From Artemia franciscana (lineage: Eukaryota; Arthropoda; Branchiopoda; Anostraca; Artemiidae), in NCBI RefSeq assembly GCF_032884065.1, contig NC_088865.1, forward strand, positions 44,959,152 to 45,023,151: a stretch of DNA of 64,000 bases. The letters are read 5' to 3'. The position numbers and the translations under genes were made by a program. The stretch's first letter is position 1. Each line of letters starts with the position of its first letter. Positions 1-64,000 of the stretch are shown in pieces. The notes under the pieces were generated by a model. That model saw only the letters and a list, made by a program, of their open reading frames with translations, had not been told where the DNA came from and searched no databases.

Positions 1-1478
1 AAAATTGCTGAGGATCTGGAAGATGCGGCAGAAAGATGGGTGGAACATTTTGAGAATGTGCTAAACCGAGATACAGTTGCAGGAAAAGATATAGATGAAA
101 ATGGAAAAATTTGAGATACCTTGGATGTGAAGGAAGATTTGTTTAGTGAGGAACAATTAGCGACAGTACTAAAAGGATTAAAAAATAATAAGGCCCCAGG
201 TGCTGATAGTATGATTAATGAGTTTCTTAAATATGGTGGCTCTGAGGTTAGGAATAAGCTACTGAAGATTATGAACATGATTTTTGAAAAAGGGGAAGTA
301 CCCAATGATTTTAGGAAAACCTTAATTAAACCACTGTATAAGAAAGGTGACAAGAGTGAGTGTCGTAATTATCGAGGCATTAGTATGGTCTCTGTAGGTA
401 GCAAATTACTGAGTAATATGATACTTTTTAGACTGAGACATGCTGTAGACAAAGTTTTAAGGGAAGAACAATGCGGTTTTAGAAAAGGTAGAGGATGTGT
501 CGACCATGTTTTCACTCTTAGGTTAATAATTGAGAAGTCCCTTCGTTGTCAAACACCTTTGGTCCTCAGTTTTATCGATTATGAGCAAGCTTTCGATTCT
601 GTTGATAGAACAGCGTTAACAAAGGTCTTATCATTATATGGTATACCTGAAAAATACATTAAAGTGATTTGCGCTATGTACGAGAATAATACTGCTGCGG
701 TTAAGGTAGGAAATGAGGTTAGCAACTGGTTTTGTATTAAATCAGGAGTTAAGCAGGATTGTGTTCTATCCCTCTTTATATGAATCATTTTGATGGACTA
801 CGTCTTAAGGAGCACAGGAAAGGCAATTGGAGACCATGGAATCAAATGATCAAATTACTAATCAAATTAGTAAAGATGGTGGGAGCAGTGAAGATGTTAA
901 AAGTAGAATAGCTAAGGCTCAGGGTGTTTTTTCACAGTTAAAAAAAGTTTGGAAGAATAGAAAGATAAGTCTACAAACCAAGATTAGAATATTGGAAGCT
1001 ACAGTGATGACAGTGGTCAAATATGGCTCTGAAGCATGGGCACTCCGAAAAGCAGATGATAATTTACTAGATGTTTTCCAGAGAAATTGCCTACGGATTG
1101 TTCTGGGTACCCGGCTGACTGACCGTATTTCAAACAGTAGGTTGTACGAAAAGTGTGGTTCAATCCCGCTTTCTGGGGCTATAATGAAAGAAAGGTTGAG
1201 ATGGCTAGGCCACGTTCTACGGATGAAGGATGACAGATTACCGAAGATTGTCCTTTTTGGCCAACCGTCTGGGGCTACACGGAAAGCAGGTCGTCCTTGT
1301 CTGGGTTGGGAGGATGTCATAAATAAGGATTTAAAGGAAATGGGAACTTCCTGGGAGGGTGTAAAGAGGGAGGCTTTAAATAGATTAGGTTGGAGGAGGA
1401 GCGTGCGTAGCTGTGTTGGCCTCAGGCGGCTTGGTGCTGCAGTGAGTTATTAGTAGTAGTAGTAGTTAGTAGTAGAGA
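1..1478 (+). pseudogene. Non-LTR retrotransposon (LINE) reverse transcriptase, broken; 5' end outside window
   Basis: Frame 1 is a LINE reverse transcriptase: NNKAPGADSMINEF at about 190, QCGFRKGRGCVDHV at about 470, catalytic block SFIDYEQAFDSVDR near 570-610, and SGVKQDCVLS before 775. The frame is cut by a TGA at 112-114 and again at 781-783, the second where related elements have Trp. The reading then goes on to about 846 and jumps to the RT C-terminal part (frame of 827-1453: ISKDGGSSEDVKSRIAKAQG, KYGSEAWALRK, RLRWLGHVLRMKD, GRPCLGWEDV). The YADD-bearing palm segment is missing, so a deletion of a few hundred bases removed the active site. Only two nonsense changes and one deletion suggest a fairly young, dead copy. 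The clade is uncertain: the C-terminus resembles the common arthropod endonuclease-reverse transcriptase group, and the trinucleotide tail resembles RTE-like elements. Confidence 0.9.
1448..1474 (+). repeat. (TAG)n tail of the LINE
   Basis: Imperfect TAG trinucleotides directly follow the RT C-terminal stop. Short tandem 3' tails instead of poly(A) are known for several LINE clades, so this probably marks the 3' end of the element. Confidence 0.7.
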
Positions 1479-2496: not shown

Positions 2497-2800
2497 AAAT
2501 TAAATAAAAAAAACAAGTTTTTTCAACTGAAAGTAAGGAGTGACATCAAAACTTAAAACGCACAGAAATTACTTCGTATATGAAAGAGGCTGCTTCCTCA
2601 TCAACGCCCCGCTCTTTACGCTAAAGTTTGACTCTTTCTCTCAATTATTCTTTCTAAAACAGTAAAAAACTTTAGCGTAAAGAGCGGGGCGTTGATGAGG
2701 AAGCAGCCTCTTTCATATACGAAGTAATTTCTGTGCGTTTTAAGTTTTGATGTCACTCCTTACTTTCAGTTGAAAAAACTTGTTTTTTTTTATTTAATTT
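2497..2800. repeat. Long hairpin module, arms 2497-2629 and 2667-2800
   Basis: The left arm from the A-run at 2511 to 2629 and the right arm 2667-2786 are exact reverse complements over about 119 bases by eye. They extend outward to AAATTAAAT on both sides with only the length of an A/T run differing. The loop is 37 bases. The outer part carries CAACTGAAAGTAAGGAGTGA, the inner part CGCTCTTTACGCTAAAG. Related hairpins lie at 15788-16117 and 52455-52724. It could be a foldback or MITE-type unit or a module inside a larger element. Confidence 0.9.
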
Positions 2801-3340
2801 CTGAACGTTTTTGAATCAATGCATGTTTTGATTTTGGCTCTCCGCAGAGGAATGATCAAAACGAAATTTGCATATATTTTTTTGGCTCAATGGCTTTCTC
2901 ATAATTTTGATCGAATGATTTTGAGAAAAAAAGAGCGGGGGACGAAGCCTAGTTGCCCCCCGATTTTTTGGTTAATTAAAAAGGCAACTAGAACTTTTAA
3001 TTTTTTACGAATCTTTTTATTGGTAAAAGATTTACGTAACTTATAAATTAGCTTACGTAAAGAACTTTTGCATTCTCATGTTTTTATTACATATATGAGG
3101 GGATTCGCCCCATCGTCAGTACCTCGCTCTTTACACTAAAGCTTAAATTTTATCCCAATTCATTAAGAATGACCCCCTGAATCACAAAAGCCGTAGAATA
3201 AGTAGTTGAAATTACCGAAAATACTTTAGCGTAAAGAGCGAGGTATTAGAAGGAGCTGAGCCCCTCATATGGGTAATAATTTCTGTTTGTTTTAAGTTTT
3301 ATTGCTGTTCCTTACTTCCAGCTGAAAAAGCTTTTTCACT
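2801..3340 (+). repeat. Repeat-family body plus second, weaker hairpin (3095-3340)
   Basis: 2880-3010 repeats the 'GGCTxxxTCATAATTTTGATC' and 'TAGTTGCCCCC' motifs of the family. Around 3105-3150 and 3222-3270 are diverged inverted arms (TACCTCGCTCTTTACACTAA against TTAGCGTAAAGAGCGAGGTA). It ends in CTTACTTCCAGCTGAAAAAG, the outer arm sequence of the other hairpins. A mirrored copy of the same order is at 51890-52454. Confidence 0.75.
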
Positions 3341-17900: not shown

Positions 17901-20900
17901 CATTAATTCCTCCGAATTATGAGTAAAATAATATTGGGGTTAGTGTTTCAAAAAATCATAGAAGTACTCAGGCTTCACCTTGTTTACCCCTTGAAAAAAA
18001 AAGAATATCTAACTGGTTGTCACAAAGTTTCCTATATATAATCACGTAATTCTACTATAGGTACGTTGACGGTTATATTGTTCCTGATCTTGTGCTGAAG
18101 CGAGGACTAATCTACCAGTTTGTCGTTGAGGGAGGAAGCGATCCACACTCTGCCACAAATTATCACCCATTGGTTATTACTAATGAACCAATTGGAGGCT
18201 ACGAGACTTTGAGTGAATCTGAAAGGAAAAAGGTTCGAGTGTTGGCTGGTGTAGAATTTACTAGACGAGGAGTTCCAAGACCTCAAAAATGTGAGTATAT
18301 TCTGAAAATTTCTATATAAGCGTTTTGAAGACTCTTATTGAGTGCTGAAGCTAATTATCTCTCTTTCTCTATCTCGCTGTATCTCCCATTCCTCCTCCCC
18401 CCCCTTCGGCAAAATGACTCATCAGAACATCTGAAATTTTTGTGCTAGATTTGCTAGATAAGTGGAATTTTTAGCAGTTTCAGCAATGAGTTTACGGCAA
18501 AGTAAGGTTATCTATGGCTTTCCCCAAAACTCCTACTTCCGGTCTTCGCTCGGCTTGACAGATTCTATAAAAATAAGTCTGAACTGTAAAAAAAGAAGAA
18601 GCCAAATCTGATTTGGAATTCTATTCAAGTCTTGAAATCCACTTTGCTAAAGCCGTATATTTTCTATCTTCTGCTGCTGTTTAAAATAATAATGTACATT
18701 AGGTTTCTCGGGTTTCAGTAAATTCAAATACCTAGTCCTTACGACTTTCCCTGCAAGAACATCACAGCGGCTAATAGTAACTTCTCGTAGTGAATTAGTG
18801 CATATGAAGTTTTTATTATACCTGCTTGTAGAACTAGATCGACCACCTGGTTGCCTTGTTGGTATTGTGAAAAATAAAACGCTGGTTCTGAGTAATGTGT
18901 AGATAGTAATTTTTTGCCTTTTGGATACCGTTCTGATTGTCACTCTCTACAGTAGGATAAGAAACGTACAATTTCTTTCTTAGCCTATAGCATTGGTTGC
19001 AGGAATTCGAGATTTGATGCTCATTATTATTTATAAAGATTTAAGCTGGCTGATTCTTCGAAGAGATTATTCTGACATTGCAAAAATTCCCAACAACGAA
19101 CTTGCACGTTACTGGATTTCTTTCAAATTTTGCCGAAAAGTTCATCCACCATTCTCGTTCTAAAGCCAATAATGACCTCTGACATAATCAGACCTAGAGT
19201 TTGTGCCTGACAAATTTTGATGGATTAATTGTTCTGGTTCTTAAATCAATATTGGTTGTTGTATAGTTGTACCTAGTTGGTGCTTCACAAGTTCTGCTGG
19301 ATAAATATGCTAACGAGATCGACCATCTTCCACTACCTGCCACAATTAATGTTACTGGCTTTCCGACAGCATGAAGAAAGTTTAAGGGGTGTTTCGAAAG
19401 GGACTGGAATAAAGTCGACTTGTGTGTCCACCAAGCAACTCCTGCATTTCTGCTGTCAGTAGTGAAAGGTTTCTATTATTTGCTTCAACTGAATGTATAC
19501 TCTGCAAATTGCGATATGTGAATCTGTATTACCGTAGTCTTATTTGTTGTCTGATAGGTGCCAAGAAAGCTGCCATTCTACTTGAATAGTTTCGAATTGG
19601 TATCCGGAGTCCGCTTGGAATATTGATCTTGATCTTAAGAATATAAATGATATTAAAAGTGATAAATTAAAAAAATGGAGAATTCAGTAAACTAGTTTAT
19701 TTTTTACAAAGAACATGTAAGGTGGTTATTCAAAATATTTAGTTTGTTAGACTGACGCAAAGTTAGACGCCTAATGCCTTAATTCTCCTTGTTTTCAGTA
19801 CTCTGCTAATTCATCTCGCTATACTGTTTGCTAATAATATAAAAACCAGGGGTTAGGGGCGACTTTTTCTCTAACTGAGAGGAGGTGGCACGGATAGAGG
19901 TATTTTTTTTACACTGGAGGGTAAAAAGAAACCACCTATGTTTATTTTTTTTAATAATCAATTGAAAAGTTTTTATAACATACAAAACCACTAATGAATT
20001 TAAAATCTCCTTCATGTTTTAATCTTCAGCCTAAATGGCACCTCAGTCCTTACCACGTCCTATAATACATGTAAAAGATTGAAAACAAGCCTTATAGCTT
20101 TTTCACCCTCCAGCCTAAATCACACCTATATTCTCACCGCCTCCTTTAAAAGTTCCTACCAATTGAAACAATTTTCTTATGCTCTTCTACTCTGCAGCCT
20201 AAATAACGCCTCTGTCTTTATCTCCTCCTTCAAAAGCTCTGTTTAAGCTAAGAATCTTGAAACAAAAAAAAGTTTTGTTGAGAATATTTTGAACCGTTAA
20301 ATTGAATCTATTTTTCAGCTGATTCATGTATAAAACCCTTAGACTGAATCTGGTTGTTTGTGTCTGAAACTGTATTATGTAGCTAGTCGCTTATGTCTGA
20401 AATCTTTGAACTGAATCTATTTCATAGCTAGATCTTTATTGCTGAAACCTTTACTAGAACCATTAAGCTGAATGTAAATCGTGGCTGGTTGTTTAGTCGC
20501 AAAATTGATAAACTGAATTTGTTTCAAAGCTTCTTGTTTGGAACCATTATTCAAATCATTAAGCTGACTATTTCATAGCTAGTTCTTTATGTCTGAAACC
20601 TTTACTAGAACCATTAAGCTGAATGTAAATCGTGGCTGGTTGTTTAGTCGCAAAATTGATAAACTGAATTTGTTTCAAAGCTTCTTGTTTGGAACCATTA
20701 TTCAAATCATTAAGCTGACTATTTCGTAGCTAGTTCTTTATGTCTGAAACCTTTACTAGAACCATTAAGCTGAATGTAAATCGTGGCTGGTTGTTTAGTC
20801 GCAAAATTGATAAACTGAATTTGTTTCAAAGCTTCTTGTTTGGAACCATTATTCAAATCATTAAGCTGACTATTTCATAGCTAGATCTTTATGTCTGAAA

Positions 20901-22805
20901 CCTTTACTAGAACCATTAAGCTGAATGTAAATCGTGGCTGGTTGTTTAGTCGCAAAATTGATAAACTGAATTTGTTTCAAAGCTTCTTGTTTGGAACCAT
21001 TATTCAAATCATTAAGCTGACTATTTCATAGCTAGTTCTTTATGTCTGAAACCTTTACTAGAACCATTAAGCTGAATGTAAATCGTGGCTGGTTGTTTAG
21101 TCGCAAAACTGATAAACTGAATTTGTTTCATAGCTTCTTGTTTGGAACCATTATTCAAATCATTAAGCTGACTATTTCGTAGCTAGTTCTTTATGTCTGA
21201 AACCTTTACTAGAACCATTAAGCTGAATGTAAATCGTGGCTGGTTGTTTAGTCGCAAAATTGATAAACTGAATTTGTTTCAAAGCTTCTTGTTTGGAACC
21301 ATTATTCAAATCATTAAGCTGACTATTTCGTAGCTAGTTCTTTATGTCTGAAACCTTTACTAGAACCATTAAGCTGAATGTAAATCGTGGCTGGTTGTTT
21401 AGTCGCAAAATTGATAAACTGAATTTGTTTCAAAGCTTCTTGTTTGGAACCATTATTCAAATCATTAAGCTGACTATTTCATAGCTAGATCTTTATTGCT
21501 GAAACCTTTACTAGAACCATTAAGCTGAATGTAAATCGTGGCTGGTTGTTTAGTCGCAAAATTGATAAACTGAATTTGTTTCAAAGCTTCTTGTTTGGAA
21601 CCATTATTCAAATCATTAAGCTGACTATTTCATAGCTAGTTCTTTATGTCTGAAACCTTTACTAGAACCATTAAGCTGAATGTAAATCGTGGCTGGTTGT
21701 TTAGTCGCAAAATTGATAAACTGAATTTGTTTCAAAGCTTCTTGTTTGGAACCATTATTCAAATCATTAAGCTGACTATTTCGTAGCTAGTTCTTTATGT
21801 CTGAAACCTTTACTAGAACCATTAAGCTGAATGTAAATCGTGGCTGGTTGTTTAGTCGCAAAATTGATAAACTGAATTTGTTTCAAAGCTTCTTGTTTGG
21901 AACCATTATTCAAATCATTAAGCTGACTATTTCGTAGCTAGTTCTTTATGTCTGAAACCTTTACTAGAACCATTAAGCTGAATATAAATCGTGGCTGGTT
22001 GTTTAGTCGCAAAATTGATAAACTGAATTTGTTTCATAGCTTCTTGTTTGGAACCATTATTCAAATCATTAAGCTGACTATTTCGTAGCTAGTTGTATAT
22101 ATCTAACGACGTTAAACTAAACCTGTTTCAAAGCTTCAACAGTCTAAACTGTTGAACTGTACCTTTTTTCATAGCCCGTTGTTCATGTCTGAAACCGCTG
22201 CTAAACAATTAAACTGAATTTATTTTGTAGCTGGTTGTTTGTGCCTGAAACCGCTAAGCTGACTCTATTTCTTAGCTGCTTGTTTGTGTCTGAAACCGTT
22301 GAACCAAGTTTATTTTTGAGCTGGTTGTTTTTGTCTGAAATCTATAAACTGAATCTAGTATGTAGCTAGTTCTTTATGTCAGAAACCGTTACTGAAACCA
22401 TTAACCTGATCAGTTTCAATGCTGTCTGTTTGTCTGAAAATGTTCATGTCTCGTTTATGTCTATTAAACAGAATCTGTTTCCTAGCTGGCCGTTTGTGTC
22501 ACTGGTATCATGATGGGACTGACCCAAGATTGGATGATGACCTGACCACATTTCAAAAATACCGCAACACATTGAGCTATAGCTGTGAGGAAGGGGACCA
22601 GGCTCGATTAGAAGCGGCACCGAATTCAAGTTGGCCGGATGTAGTTTATTACCACAGTTTTACCCACCCGTATATGGGTGGAAAAATAAAAGTTGTCGAC
22701 TCCTATAAATCATTTACTAGTAACATGGGTGCGGTTATTTATCCCGGTTTTCTTGTATTCCTAACTATTCCTTTATGTTTGCTTAAATATGTTTGTTGTG
22801 TCTAA
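4513..22805 (+). CDS. knk: Knickkopf/Skeletor-family protein, C-terminal five exons (5' part outside window)
   Basis: Exons 4513-4648, 7932-8118, 10367-10492, 18061-18290 and 22486-22805 join with consistent codon phases at every junction and give about 332 codons to a TAA at 22803. The product runs from the late DOMON domain (YIIWSMGRLD), through ARIGPSGQRRGYSGLTG, AWYVDGYIVPDLVLKRG and VRVLAGVEFTRRGVPRP, to YYHSFTHPYMGGKIKVVD and a hydrophobic tail. These blocks are hallmarks of the DM13-DOMON family. Insect Knickkopf is an extracellular GPI-linked protein that organises and protects cuticular chitin; Skeletor is its relative, first described as a spindle-matrix protein. SFTHxxM rather than CFTH, the VEFTRRG block and the membrane-type tail favour Knickkopf, but paralog identity is inferred from memory. 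The N-terminal DM13 domains and start lie upstream. Introns are 3.3, 2.2, 7.6 and 4.2 kb and full of repeats. Confidence 0.9.
4649..7931 (+). other. knk-like intron (3.3 kb)
   Basis: Holds purine-rich G-run stretches (5100-5300), a relic of the dispersed family at about 5595-5760 (AAAACGAACAGAAATTAAAT), and the tandem repeat at 6551-6829. The rest, including 5900-6500 and 6850-7930, shows no gene; open frames here are short and lack recognisable similarity. Confidence 0.6.
6551..6829 (+). repeat. Tandem repeat, three units (78 and 100 bp)
   Basis: CCAATCTTAGATCGTTCGTA recurs at about 6552, 6630 and 6730. The second and third units carry an extra 22 bases (TCTGTTGTCGATAAATGATT...) absent from the first. 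The near identity of the units points to recent duplication. Confidence 0.9.
7932..8118 (+). CDS. knk: knk-like exon B (end of DOMON)
   Basis: Acceptor TCTTATTACAG ends at 7931 and donor GTGAGTA starts at 8119. Reads DDGDQTINTDGSTYIIWSMG, RLDDKRRPTFHRIWQRGDRA, IEFGRQGKKNCDNFVVVPEE, T. YIIWSMGRL is the conserved last DOMON strand of the family. Phase 2 in (completes Pro) and two bases out (Pro completed by the next exon). Confidence 0.9.
8119..10366 (+). other. knk-like intron (2.2 kb)
   Basis: Contains G-rich repeat remnants near 8330-8360 and 8850, the SINE at 9395-9683, and another G-rich remnant near 9830-9970. No gene seen. Confidence 0.6.
9395..9683 (-). mobile_element. tRNA-derived SINE, copy 1
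   Basis: Read on the minus strand, it begins with an A-box-like TGGCCAAGTGGATGGCGCGC and a B-box-like GGTTTGATTCC (9618-9628). A body follows with GTCAGTTGCGTGACT-like and ACCCAGCTCTAAATGGTACC sequence, ending near CGGAGATCAGCACCGCCGG. The same body in the same order is at 40466-40790, so this is a SINE family with a tRNA head, not a tRNA gene. Confidence 0.88.
10367..10492 (+). CDS. knk: knk-like exon C
   Basis: Acceptor TTCACGTAG ends at 10366 and donor GTAGGT starts at 10493. Reads KPWNIPPIFDPSKRVFVARI, GPSGQRRGYSGLTGLPSSSL, A. ARIGP...GYSGLTG is a signature of Knickkopf and Skeletor proteins. It starts with one base and ends with TG, which the next exon's G completes to Trp. Confidence 0.93.
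13547..13654. repeat. (TA)n microsatellite
   Basis: About 108 bases of TA dinucleotide with one TGG and one AA interruption. It directly abuts the Helitron-like unit on its right. Confidence 0.97.
13780..14043 (+). CDS. Small ORF of Helitron-like element (87 aa, putative)
   Basis: Begins MATAEEAAQRVYAKKLAADR. Charged throughout, with a basic KKRKR near residue 23-27 and repeats of EQQENRLAAKE-type sequence. It ends in an acidic stretch DSDDDWVWDFDLDKV. The basic Ala/Arg/Glu-rich repeats resemble the N-terminal leader of arthropod Helitron proteins, so this is probably an orphaned fragment of a transposon ORF. Expression and function are unknown. Confidence 0.45.
   Translation: MATAEEAAQRVYAKKLAADRESKKRKRSEESQEQQENRLAAKERKTAQLDENPPGQRESKHIKTENDSDDDWVWDFDLDKVINAYQI
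14165..14575 (+). repeat. Minisatellite (ACGACCGGGACACAGGGA family)
   Basis: Imperfect tandem units built from GACGACCGGGACACAGGG, with ATATAAAT or ACTCAAAGAGAAATTACAGA linkers. A single unit of the same sequence is in the short relative near 46815. The long opposite-strand open frame is an artefact of the repeat. Confidence 0.9.
14826..14888 (+). repeat. Terminal GC-rich hairpins of Helitron-like element
   Basis: Two hairpins, each with a GAA loop: GGGGCGC/GCGCCCC near 14829-14845, and a 13-bp perfect stem GTTGGGGTGGCGC/GCGCCACCCCAAC at 14857-14885. The second is followed by AGCTAT and the (TA)n tract. Confidence 0.85.
14889..14957. repeat. (TA)n microsatellite
   Basis: About 69 bases of TA immediately after the terminal hairpin. 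Together with 13547-13654 it brackets the element. Confidence 0.97.
15785..16120 (+). repeat. Hairpin module of the dispersed family (copy B)
   Basis: Arms about 15788-15910 and 16000-16117 are diverged inverted repeats. They include CATTAAAACTTAAAACGGAC against its mirror ending TTTTAAGTTTTAATGTTGCT, and CACCTCGCTCTTCACACTA against TTAGCGTTAAGAGTGAGGTG. This is the most diverged of the three large hairpins. Confidence 0.8.
16121..17065 (+). repeat. Dispersed family main body (copy B)
   Basis: Carries the same blocks in the same order as 3341-4206: the ACTATGCTGAACAAAA block, 'GGGAGGGGGCCTAGTTGCCC', 'CAACTGGGTCGGTACGGTTA' and 'ATTGAGCCGGGTCGCTCATT'. The terminal palindrome at about 17046-17069 has decayed. 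Confidence 0.8.
17190..17430 (+). repeat. Relic of hairpin module
   Basis: TTTCAACTAAAGTAAGGAGC at about 17200 and a distant mirror GAGGAGACAGCCCCCTTCAC near 17390 show a decayed hairpin of the same family. An open frame across it is not considered a gene. Confidence 0.6.
18061..18290 (+). CDS. knk: knk-like exon D
   Basis: Acceptor TTCTACTATAG ends at 18060 and donor GTGAGTA starts at 18291. Reads YVDGYIVPDLVLKRGLIYQF, VVEGGSDPHSATNYHPLVIT, NEPIGGYETLSESERKKVRV, LAGVEFTRRGVPRPQK. It is one of the most conserved regions of the family (a cupredoxin/plastocyanin-like fold is reported for Knickkopf). One base in and one base out, both matching the neighbouring exons. Confidence 0.95.
18291..20280 (+). 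other. First half of last knk-like intron
   Basis: Contains the hAT relic at 19270-19545. A 98-codon open frame on the minus strand at 18647-18943 is not recognised. Nothing else seen. Confidence 0.5.
19270..19545 (+). pseudogene. hAT transposase C-terminal fragment (decayed)
   Basis: One frame reads YW at 19353, two in-frame stops, then LVCPPSNSCISAVSSERF (SSERF at 19458-19472) and LLFAS. Tyr-Trp followed by Pro-rich sequence and SSERxFS is the hAT dimerisation region. No transposase core or termini were found, so this is a relic. Confidence 0.5.
20285..22485 (+). repeat. Satellite array of ~50-bp monomers; 151-bp trimer higher-order unit in the core
   Basis: From about 20440 to 22095 the unit is 151 bp and repeats 11 times; CCTTTACTAGAACCATTAAG starts at 20448, 20599, 20750, 20901, 21052, 21203, 21354, 21505, 21656, 21807 and 21958. 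Each unit splits into three related parts of about 50 bases, each with GAATxTxTTTCxxAGCTxxT near its middle. Flanks at 20285-20440 and 22096-22485 are single diverged monomers. The last monomer runs into the acceptor and first 15 bases of the final exon (GAATCTGTTTCCTAG|CTGG). Confidence 0.95.
22486..22805 (+). CDS. knk: knk-like last exon, C-terminus with hydrophobic tail
   Basis: The exon starts after TTTCCTAG at 22485; CT plus the T left by exon D gives Ser. It reads GRLCHWYHDGTDPRLDDDLT, TFQKYRNTLSYSCEEGDQAR, LEAAPNSSWPDVVYYHSFTH, PYMGGKIKVVDSYKSFTSNM and the tail GAVIYPGFLVFLTIPLCLLK-YVCCV, then TAA at 22803-22805. SFTHPYM corresponds to the cupredoxin Cys-His-Met ligand strand with Ser instead of Cys, as I recall for Knickkopf. 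The tail follows a small-residue region (SNMGA) and fits a GPI signal; it could also be a transmembrane anchor. Confidence 0.95.
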
Positions 22806-23137: not shown

Positions 23138-23143
23138 AATAAA
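23138..23143 (+). terminator. Candidate polyadenylation signal of knk-like gene
   Basis: AATAAA, 333 bases after the stop codon. The region is so AT-rich that chance occurrence is likely; further AATAAA follow at about 23151. Confidence 0.35.
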
Positions 23144-60249: not shown

Positions 60250-60272
60250 ATCAGACAAATAATCACAGAGAA

Positions 60273-60313
<41 letters not shown>

Positions 60314-60713
60314 GAGAGTAACAACTTGAAAAGTTGTTAACTTAAAGAAAGCAGCTGTTTACTTTTCCCCGTGTCTGTCTTTGTTTGTTTGTTTGTCTGA
60401 CTCTGTGTGTTTGTAAGTGTTTGCTGGTCTCTCTCTCTCTATGTCCGTGTGTCTGACTGGCAGTTTGTTTGTCTCTATCACTTTGACGTTGTGTCTGAGT
60501 GGGTGTTTGCCAGTTTCTGTGTCTCTCTTTGGTTGTTTGTATGTCTAACTCTGTTTGTTTTTATGCGTTTCTGCCTCTCTCTATTTCTGTGCCTGTTTGT
60601 CTGAGCGAATGTTCGCTTTCCGCTGTGTATTTGTTTGTCTGACTCAGTGTGTAATGTATGTGTTTTCTTTCTCTCTCTCTCTCTCTGTCTCCATCTTTGT
60701 CTCTGTCTTTCTG

Positions 60714-60750
<37 letters not shown>

Positions 60751-60860
60751 ATTTCTCTCTCTCTGTCTCTGTATCTGTCTCCGTCTCTCTCGCTCTCTCT
60801 CTCTCTCTTTTTCTCTCTTTCTCTTTCTCTCTCTCACTCTCTCTCTCTCTCTCTCTCTCT

Positions 60861-60903
<43 letters not shown>

Positions 60904-62071
60904 GAAACACATACAAACACAAACTGAGTCAGACAAACAAATACACGAGGAAAAGTGAACATTCGCTCTGAAAAACAGGCGCAGAAATAGAGAGAGGCAG
61001 AAACACATAAAAACACACATAGTTAGACATACAAACAACCAAAGAGAGACACAGAGACTGGCAAATACCCACTCAGACACAACAGCACAGTGAGAGAGAC
61101 AAGCAAAACAGCCAGTCAGACACATAGACAGAGAGATAGAGACCAGCAAACACTTACAAACACGCAGAGTCAGACAAACAAACAAAGACGGACGCAGGGA
61201 AAAGCAAACAGCTGCTTTCTTTATGTTAACAACTTTTAAGTTAGGATCGTTTAGGTTTAGTTAGCATGGCCAGCACGCTAACCTAAGGCAACCTAACCTA
61301 AAAGTAGTTAGCCTAGTGTAGACTAACCTCAAGTTCATATATCCCTTGTGATTTTGGGTGTCTGAATCTGTGTATTTGTATGTGTTTTTGTTTCTTTTAC
61401 TCTCCGTACCGGAGTTTCTGAGTGGGTATTTGCTTACCACTCTCTCTCTGTGGCAATGTATCTGACCAGGTGTTGGCTTATCTCTCTCTCTCTCTGTCTG
61501 TCTTTGTGTGTTTATGTATCTCACTCTGTGTGTTTGTACGTGTTTTTTGTCTATCTCTCCCTCTACGCCTTTATGTCTGAGAGGATGTTTGCTTGTCCCC
61601 CTATCTGCCTTTTTATGTTTGTGTGTCTAACTCTGTGTGTTTGTGGGTATTTTGTCTCTCTATCTCTCTGTGCCTGTTTGTATGAGCGACTGCTCAAACA
61701 AACTCTCTCTCTCTTTCTTTCTTTCTCTCTCTCTCTCTTTCTCTCTGTATATGTGTTTGTATGAGTGTGTGTGTGTGTGTTTTTGCGTGTCTGTGTGTCT
61801 GATCAGATGTTTGCTTGTTTCTGTTTATTTGCATGTCTGAATCTGTGTGTTTGAATGTGTTTCTCTCTTTTTTTCTCTCTCTACCTGTGTGTCGGGGTGA
61901 CTGTTTGCTTGTCTATTTTCTTTTTTCTCTCTCTCTCTCTCTTTATCTGTGCCTGTGTCTCTGAGTGAGATGTTTGCTTATCTCTGTGTCTGCTTTTGTA
62001 TGTTTGTGGGTCTGACTCTGTGTGTGTTTTTGAGTGTGTTTTGGTCTCTCTCTCTCTCTGTCTCTATCTCT

Positions 62072-62148
<77 letters not shown>

Positions 62149-64000
62149 AGCCTATTTTCCAAGTTGGTGTTTGCTTGTCCTCATAACTGTTTTTGTGTGT
62201 TTGTGTTTGTGACTCTGTGTGTTTGTCTGCATTTTTATCTATCTCTCTGTCTGCCTGTGTGTCTAAATGGCTGTTTTATGGTTCCCCTGTCTATCTTTGT
62301 CTGTCTGTGTGTCTGACTGGCTGTTTTCTGGTCTCTCTTACTATGCTTGATCGTCTGAGTGGGTGTTTGCATATTTCTGTGTCTGTTTTTATGTGTTTGT
62401 ATGTCTTAATCTCGGTGTTTGCTTGTGTTTCTATATCTCTCTCTCTCTTAGTGCCCGTGTGTTTAAGCGAGTGTTTGCTTGTTTCTCTGTCTGTTTTTGT
62501 GAGTTTGCATGTCTGACTCTATGTATTTGTCGCTCTATCTATCTCTGGGCCCATACATCTCAGCAGTTGGCTGCTTGTTCCCTTGTCTGTCTTTGTGTGT
62601 TGGTGTTTTTGAATCTTTGGGTTTGCTTGTTTCTCTCTTTTTGTACCTATTTGCCCGAATGGCTGTTGGATTGTCTCTTTATCTGTCTTTGTGTGTTTTT
62701 GTGTCTAATCCTGTGTGTTTGTAAGTGTTTGCTTGTCTCTTTCTCTCTGTCTGTGGGTTTGACTGCCTGTTTGCTTGTCTCTCTCACTGTGTTTTTGCGT
62801 CTGAGCGAGTGTTTGCAGGCTTCTGTCTTTTCGTTTTCTTATGTCAGACTTTGTGTGGTATGTGTCTCTCTCTCTCTCTCTCTCTCTGTCTCTGCCTGTG
62901 TGTCTGAGCAGTTCTTTACTTGTCTCTGTGTCTGTCTTTGTATGGTCTTTTTGTCTTTGTTTGTTTGTTTGTTTTTTTGTCTTTCTCTCTGTCTCTGCCT
63001 GTGAATATCAGCAGATGTATTCTTGTCCCCGTATTTGTCTTTGAGTGTTTGTGTGTCCAGATCTTTGTGTTTGTGGGTTTGACTTTGTTTGTTTGTATGT
63101 CTTTCTTTCTCTCTCTGTCTCTCTCTCTCTCAGTCTGGGCCGATATTAGCTTGTCCTTTTGTCTGTCTTTGTATGTTTGCGTGTCTGAATCTGCGTGTTT
63201 GTATGTGTCTTTTGTTTCTCTCACTGTTTCTGTGCTTATTTGTCTGAGCAGCTGTTTACTTGTCTCTATTTCTATCTTTTTGTTTCCAACTCCGTGTGTT
63301 TTTTCATATTTGCTTGTCTTTTTCTCTCTCTGTGCATGTATGTTTGACTGCCTGTTCGTATGTCTCTCTCACTGTGTCTTTATGTCTGAGCGGTTGTTTG
63401 TATTTTTCTGTATCTGTCTTTGTGTGTTTTTAAGTCTTACTCTGTATCAGACACTGTATCTGACTAAGTGTTCGGATGTGTTTTTGTCTTGCTCTCTCTT
63501 TATCTGTATGTCTGAGTGGTCGTTTGCTTGTCTCTCTCTTCATGTCAACGTGTCTGAGTGGGTTTTCGCTTGTCTCCATGTTTGTCTTTGTCTGTCTGAA
63601 TCTGTGTGTTTGCACGTGTGCCTGTCTTTATCACTCTTTGAGTTTGTGTGTCTGAGCGGCTGTTTGCTTGTTTCTTTTTGTGTGTTTTTGTGTCTGACAC
63701 TGTGTGTTTGCTTATGTTTCTGTCTATTTTTTATCTCCCTCTCTCTCTATCTCTGTCCATGTACCTATCTCTCTGAGTGAATATTTGCTTGCTGTAGTGC
63801 CTGTCATTCTGTGTTTGTGTGACTGAGTTTGTGTTTTTGTAGATGGCTTTTCTCTCTCTCTCTCTGTGCCTGTGAGTTAGAGCGACTGTTTTCTTGTCTT
63901 TCTCTCTCTCTTTGTGTGTGTTTGATTGGATGTTTACTTGTTTCTGTATGTTTGTATATCTAAATCTGTGTCTGTTTTTGTGTTTTCGTCTCTCTCTGTC
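60250..64000 (+). repeat. CT/TG-rich low-complexity array with loose ~100-200-bp periodicity (runs off window)
   Basis: (CT)n blocks alternate with TGTCTGACTCTGTGTGTTTG and GTCTGAG(C/T)G(A/G)GTGTTTGCT blocks many times (for example near 60395, 61515, 61630, 62000, 62200 and 63710). The blocks are diverged, so the array is old. All reading frames over 60250-64000 are Ser/Leu/Phe/Cys-rich artefacts of the composition. Confidence 0.9.
60325..61240. repeat. Large palindrome, arms ~60325-60672 and ~60890-61240
   Basis: The outer ends AAGTTGTTAACTTAAAGAAA and TTTCTTTATGTTAACAACTT mirror each other. So do CAGCTGTTTACTTTTCCCC / GGGAAAAGCAAACAGCTG and GTAAGTGTTTGCTGGTCTCT / AGACCAGCAAACACTTAC. The centre is a (CT)n to (GA)n switch at about 60861. 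About 90 percent arm identity by eye. Confidence 0.9.

Follow-up and report, generated by a model that had tools for sequence, protein, structure and literature searches.

The 64-kb window analyzed here (C3:44959152-45023151, from a 1.27-Gb genome) contains, on the + strand, the last two coding exons of a gene that we take to be knk-like (Knickkopf-like). The penultimate coding exon (18061-18290, +) encodes YVDGYIVPDL...GVPRPQK and the first base of the next codon; its 5′ end is predicted from an acceptor, CTATAG, ending at 18060, and its donor reads AAAT/GTGAGTAT at 18290/18291, in phase 1 (slashes mark splice sites throughout). The last coding exon (22486-22805, +) encodes (S)GRLCHWYHDGTDPRL..., a hydrophobic C-terminal tail and a stop codon, and is followed by poly(A)-type signals at 23138 and 23151. 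Between the two lies a predicted 4.2-kb phase-1 intron (18291-22485, +) that terminates in TTTCCTAG and contains two tandem arrays. This model of the exons and intron is a reading of the genomic sequence. Joined, the exons read ...GVPRPQK-S-GRLCHWYHDG... and score 30.4 bits against Pfam PF25489, above the cut-off of 27; the last exon alone scores 22, the upstream exon alone has no match in Pfam, and a PDB sequence search returned nothing useful. The sole match to PF25489 across the genome was the window gene itself, below the family cut-off, and none of 14 control genomes matched. Features of the Knickkopf family given in the cited passages of a Tribolium study are DM13, DOMON and a conserved C-terminal region of ~200 amino acids (PMC4140639). 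Across both exons, the C-terminal stretch of the window gene is conserved with two paralogs in the same genome, in comparisons that included no named Knickkopf sequence. At the start of the window (115-1453), open frames resemble, by eye, the reverse transcriptase of a non-LTR element.

The main array (20298-22500, + strand) consists of 44 monomers of 33-63 bases each, with borders set by hand from local alignments, and of one further monomer (22465-22500, +) that coincides with the splice junction of the last exon, comprising 21 intronic bases ending in TAG (22485) and 15 exonic bases, CTGGCCGTTTGTGTC. Its homogenised core (20407-22106, +) repeats a 151-bp higher-order unit ~11 times, each unit being made of three monomers (55 + 45 + 51 bp), with a tandem region at 20417-22094 of period 151, 11.1 copies and 98% matches, and a mean identity of 98.6% among the 10 complete trimers. 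Sequence variants are common to blocks of trimers: copies 1, 4 and 8 carry one at position 24, copies 1 and 8 also at positions 32-33, and copies 5 and 11 at position 119. This pattern fits exchange by whole units. The preliminary description of this DNA had pictured single, diverged monomers near the exon and a homogenised trimer further out; the trimer core stands, but a simple gradient from the exon does not, as diverged single monomers flank the core at both its distal (20298-20406, +; three monomers) and its proximal end (22107-22464, +). These edge monomers are also the most exon-like: the copy at 20341 matches 13 of the 15 exonic bases and those at 22210, 22255 and 22300 match 12, against 8-10/15, 8/15 and 6/10 for the three core classes, in one of which the exon-like part is shortened. 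Nearest to the junction are the monomers at 22210 and 22255 (identity 28/36), and the 22-base stretch that directly precedes the junction monomer (22443-22464) has no match to the monomer model described below. Separately, one monomer class carries ten copies of GTAAAT, every 151 bp between 20474 and 21833, which by hand count are weak donor-like sites ~46 bases past an acceptor-like AG; the array could thus in principle define micro-exons.

That the junction is one more monomer of the array, as first proposed from inspection, was borne out by a sequence-only monomer model built from 15 of the 44 monomers with the junction left out. Run over both strands of the 64-kb window, the model returned 45 matches, every one within the array, and recovered the junction blind (23.5 bits, E 4.2e-6). 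In Smith-Waterman alignment to the 45-bp consensus the junction scored 52, against a mean of 14.2 and a maximum of 28 in 5000 dinucleotide shuffles, so that the outcome named in advance as fatal to the idea, an alignment no better than shuffled sequence, did not occur. The intronic 22 bases alone (22461-22482) scored 26, equalled by none of 5000 shuffles, and TAG with 27 exonic bases (22483-22512) scored 28, reached by one. Four control sites scored 10 (the acceptor of paralog 3), 18 (the homologous exon of paralog 2), 16 (another paralog 2 acceptor) and 10 (the preceding acceptor of the window gene), and nothing in the window scored at least 34 against the monomer on the + strand outside 20285-22510 or anywhere on the - strand. 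A second resemblance to the array, near 22758-22790 in the tail of the exon, lay at chance level (E 0.4, 11/15) and was set aside. Within the exon, homology to the monomer covers only the first 15 bases (to 22500), as would be expected of the terminal copy in a tandem duplication. Together, these results confirm that the splice junction belongs to the monomer family of the array.

Direction was addressed through the paralogs. The joined protein matched the genome at six places, of which two belong to the window gene and two to paralog 2 (E 4e-9 and 9e-9); a fifth led to paralog 3, and the sixth lies on C10 (E 1.67). Paralog 3 was first reached by a weak match (E 0.82), and its kinship comes from later local comparisons, whose best E values were 2.7e-7 and 5.8e-9 with the paralog 2 protein; pieces of the paralogs align to the penultimate exon at 32-60% over 25-55 residues. 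Paralog 2 (C3:9842824-9844994, minus strand) reads TGAGRLCEW through the homologous position (codons GCT GGA CGA TTG TGT), with no intron there. Paralog 3 (C3, about 7.717-7.732 Mb, minus strand) has a donor CCC ACT GCA G/GTACGT and a next exon beginning tttcag/CC GGG CGC CAT TGT (GRHC), which places a phase-1 intron at the codon just before Gly-Arg, exactly matching the window gene (T/CT GGC CGT TTG TGT, compared with G/CC GGG CGC CAT TGT). The fetched paralog 3 region also holds two further tandem arrays, at 361-1039 and 2778-3312 of that region, with periods of 150 and 107; the 107-bp array starts ~930 bases downstream of the CYTH exon.

The monomer model found no match in the fetched regions of either paralog. 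Because these array-free paralogs have the same coding start, and paralog 3 the same intron codon and phase, the Gly, Arg and Cys codons (and Leu, in two of the three gene copies), the reading frame and the intron position are older than the array, and the ancestral intron, judging from the paralogs, was presumably empty of it. At the nucleotide level, polarity comes from a single clean site, the first base of the Arg codon, which is C in all three gene copies, compared with T in 41 of 44 monomers, C in one and a gap in two; the third base of the Gly codon is different in each gene copy. In a tree built on 16 of the 45 monomers, the junction nested among the others with support of at most 74; the tree is too weak for rooting and was discarded as evidence on direction. 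The paralog comparison thus supports the gene as the source of the array, in agreement with the preliminary description, which had judged the gene more likely the source than the product.

On this evidence, we consider it very probable that the array is a mirage-type minisatellite (a class taken up below), copied from the intron's end together with the 15 coding bases that open the last exon. The strongest competing account reverses part of this order: the array would have arisen from unrelated intron sequence, and a deletion at microhomology (GTTTGTGTC) would then have joined a monomer to the exon and supplied its acceptor. An exact 9-base run (GTTTGTGTC) is indeed common to the exon and some monomers and would be enough for end joining, and a CC/TT difference could mark the joint. 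Against such a capture stands the extent of the exonic match, 13 of 15 bases to the monomer consensus (12/15 with a stricter majority consensus), which, with the consensus already seen when the test was set up, has a probability of 4e-7 for a random 15-mer of array composition and of 0.009 for a random synonymous coding of SGRLCH. Moreover, the intron position and coding start common to paralog 3 make a new acceptor position unneeded. We therefore regard capture as improbable.

Under the favored origin from the gene, the copies may be pictured as follows. Some 45 bases, spanning the polypyrimidine tract, the AG and the first 15 coding bases, would have been duplicated in tandem, with the extra copies falling inside the intron. 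Freed of coding constraint, these copies would have diverged, for example at the Arg codon (CGT to TGT). Unequal crossing-over or slippage in three-monomer steps could then have amplified the 151-bp trimer in the array's interior, leaving the edge monomers at both ends single and diverged. Since most copies still resemble 3′ splice sites, the spliceosome would have to choose the last acceptor, presumably with help from the recognition of the terminal exon and of its poly(A) site.

We then considered what the copies might mean for splicing. An AG in the register of the true acceptor is kept by 31 of the 44 monomers and lost in 13, which include every one of the 11 copies of a trimer class where GTGG replaces it; the motif TTTCNTAG is read by 16 of the 44. 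These counts correct the suggestion that the intron carries dozens of TTTCxTAG-type decoy acceptors. Pyrimidines at -18 to -4 number 9 of 15 at the true site and 7-12 among 11 of the 31 AG-keeping copies; these counts do not single out the true site, so other cues are needed. From each of the 31 AGs the predicted product is PQKS followed by 3-13 codons and a stop. In a message so spliced it is the terminal exon that is lengthened, so the transcript would probably avoid the decay that a later exon junction sets off, and its protein would lack the C-terminal hydrophobic tail.

A functional reading, with the decoy acceptors under selection as a regulatory array that diverts the transcript to stop-ended isoforms, could draw on those 31 in-register AGs and their universal stops, on pyrimidine tracts that in several copies are as rich as the true one, and on Tribolium TcKnk3, which forms alternative C termini through splicing according to the cited passages (PMC4140639). 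We nevertheless find it highly improbable: of the three monomer classes, one lacks the AG and another has a truncated exon-like part, and stops are expected in AT-rich repeats anyway. In addition, the amphioxus mirages are reported, in the cited part of that work, to leave regular splicing undisturbed (PMC3087553), and the cited passages of the Tribolium paper report no such transcripts for TcKnk and TcKnk2 (PMC4140639). The array copies have no established function.

Wide occurrence of the monomer family elsewhere in the genome, the second outcome that had been named as fatal to an origin at this locus, was looked for with the whole array and with short patterns and was not found. The genome search skips very common words, so its counts are lower bounds. 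Within that sensitivity, the 2.2-kb array matched only itself in the 1.27-Gb assembly, and a 24-base pattern from the exon side, allowing at most 3 mismatches, occurred at 12 places, all within the array (0 for the reversed control). An intronic-side pattern at the same tolerance occurred at eight places (control, 1), five in the array, junction included, and three elsewhere, on C4, C8 and C10; the latter are single, partial matches of 12.5-12.9 bits and were read as chance. A 21-base pattern with at most 2 mismatches occurred at two places, one in the array and one on C12. The C12 match was rejected as a relative: it sits in a different, unrelated repeat, in which the monomer model finds nothing. 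At the sensitivity used, the monomer family is therefore private to the knk-like locus. That the array is one location of a dispersed repeat or satellite family is the least probable of the accounts weighed here, resting as it would on the three extra intronic-side matches, which are single copies that do not extend to the full monomer, and on the C12 match in unrelated sequence, while the full-length query and the exon-side pattern match the knk-like locus only. The word satellite, used for the array at the outset, proved too strong for the same reason: satellite families form long arrays at many or large sites, none of which was seen at this sensitivity, and a single 2.2-kb array in 1.27 Gb is a single-locus minisatellite.

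Also within the window, a TC/TG-rich tract at 60.3-64 kb with words like TGTTTGTGTCTGA gave nothing of at least 34 against the monomer and was not counted as a relative. The tract (60267-64000) is long and degenerate and has, by eye, a GA/CA-rich inverted counterpart near 60900-61200, which suggests a large inverted repeat.

The name mirage is reportedly due to Canestro (2002). It denotes a rare kind of repeat in which an intron/exon boundary has been duplicated in tandem, as in the amphioxus genes described in the cited part of one study (PMC3087553), with TnC and PGBD5 among the mirage genes in the cited part of another (PMC3902484). The knk-like array shares the defining anatomy: its unit contains both the intron end and the exon start (21 intronic and 15 exonic bases), its copies run head to tail beside the authentic boundary and reach the exon, save for the unmatched 22443-22464, and splice signals persist in many but not all copies (31 of 44 AGs in register). 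The closest likeness is to amphioxus BflGb6, where, in the passages cited, an intron's 3′ end and the 5′ part of the next exon are repeated in tandem, many but not all repeats keep their AG/GT signals, and the units are 81-100% identical, with inner units homogenised and edges excluded (PMC3087553). Copy number and unit length differ, with 44 copies of ~45 bp here, whereas the two haplotypes of BflGb6 carry 3 and 6 units, each of 150-160 bp; units of the amphioxus Adh3 mirage span 10-72 bp (PMC3087553, as cited). Relative to the amphioxus cases as far as these passages describe them, the knk-like array has a three-monomer higher-order unit, lies in an arthropod-type gene and has more diverged edges.

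Other systems are more distant. Internal tandem repeats of human segmental-duplication genes likewise involve minisatellite expansion that may reach an exon-intron boundary, with cryptic splice sites, but in the cited passages they average 4 units of 30 bp, lie in coding sequence in half of the cases, expanded mostly in primates and often give alternative transcripts, with no higher-order unit described there (PMC2812944). In Drosophila, tandem duplication around a splice site also alters intron anatomy through intron gain or sliding; according to the cited part of that study, a new intron arises there from duplicated exon sequence, whereas here the intron, with its counterpart in paralog 3, is old and only its acceptor end was multiplied (PMC2891723). 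The knk-like array is thus not the first case of its kind, as duplicated intron/exon boundaries have already been described (PMC3087553). It is a mirage, unusual in its 151-bp three-monomer higher-order unit, its high copy number and its host. Among the literature matches listed, none concerned a mirage outside lancelets, a weak negative given that subscription journals lie mostly outside the coverage.

The second array of the intron (20002-20290, +) lies just upstream of the main one and is separate from it, with three diverged copies of period 84. Its units have an acceptor-like look, a pyrimidine tract followed by CAG-CCTAAA (20027, 20111, 20195), and at the sensitivity used the genome holds no other match to the stretch. 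The string ATCTTCAGCCTAAA, downstream of the paralog 2 exon ending in DIVYYQ, recurs letter for letter in the copy at 20027, possibly by chance. A bolder generalization, which we regard as a long shot, is that duplicated splice junctions recurrently seed higher-order arrays in arthropod introns, so that this intron would hold two independent examples (the 45-bp array and an older-looking 84-bp one) whose decoys compete measurably and tune the amount of membrane-tailed protein.

Tandem arrays rarely reveal what they came from; at this locus, the source persists as a functional acceptor at the end of the array, and the paralogs give the direction. The knk-like case would extend mirages beyond lancelets, the growth of a higher-order unit included, and would offer a natural test of how the spliceosome chooses one acceptor among some 30 near-copies.
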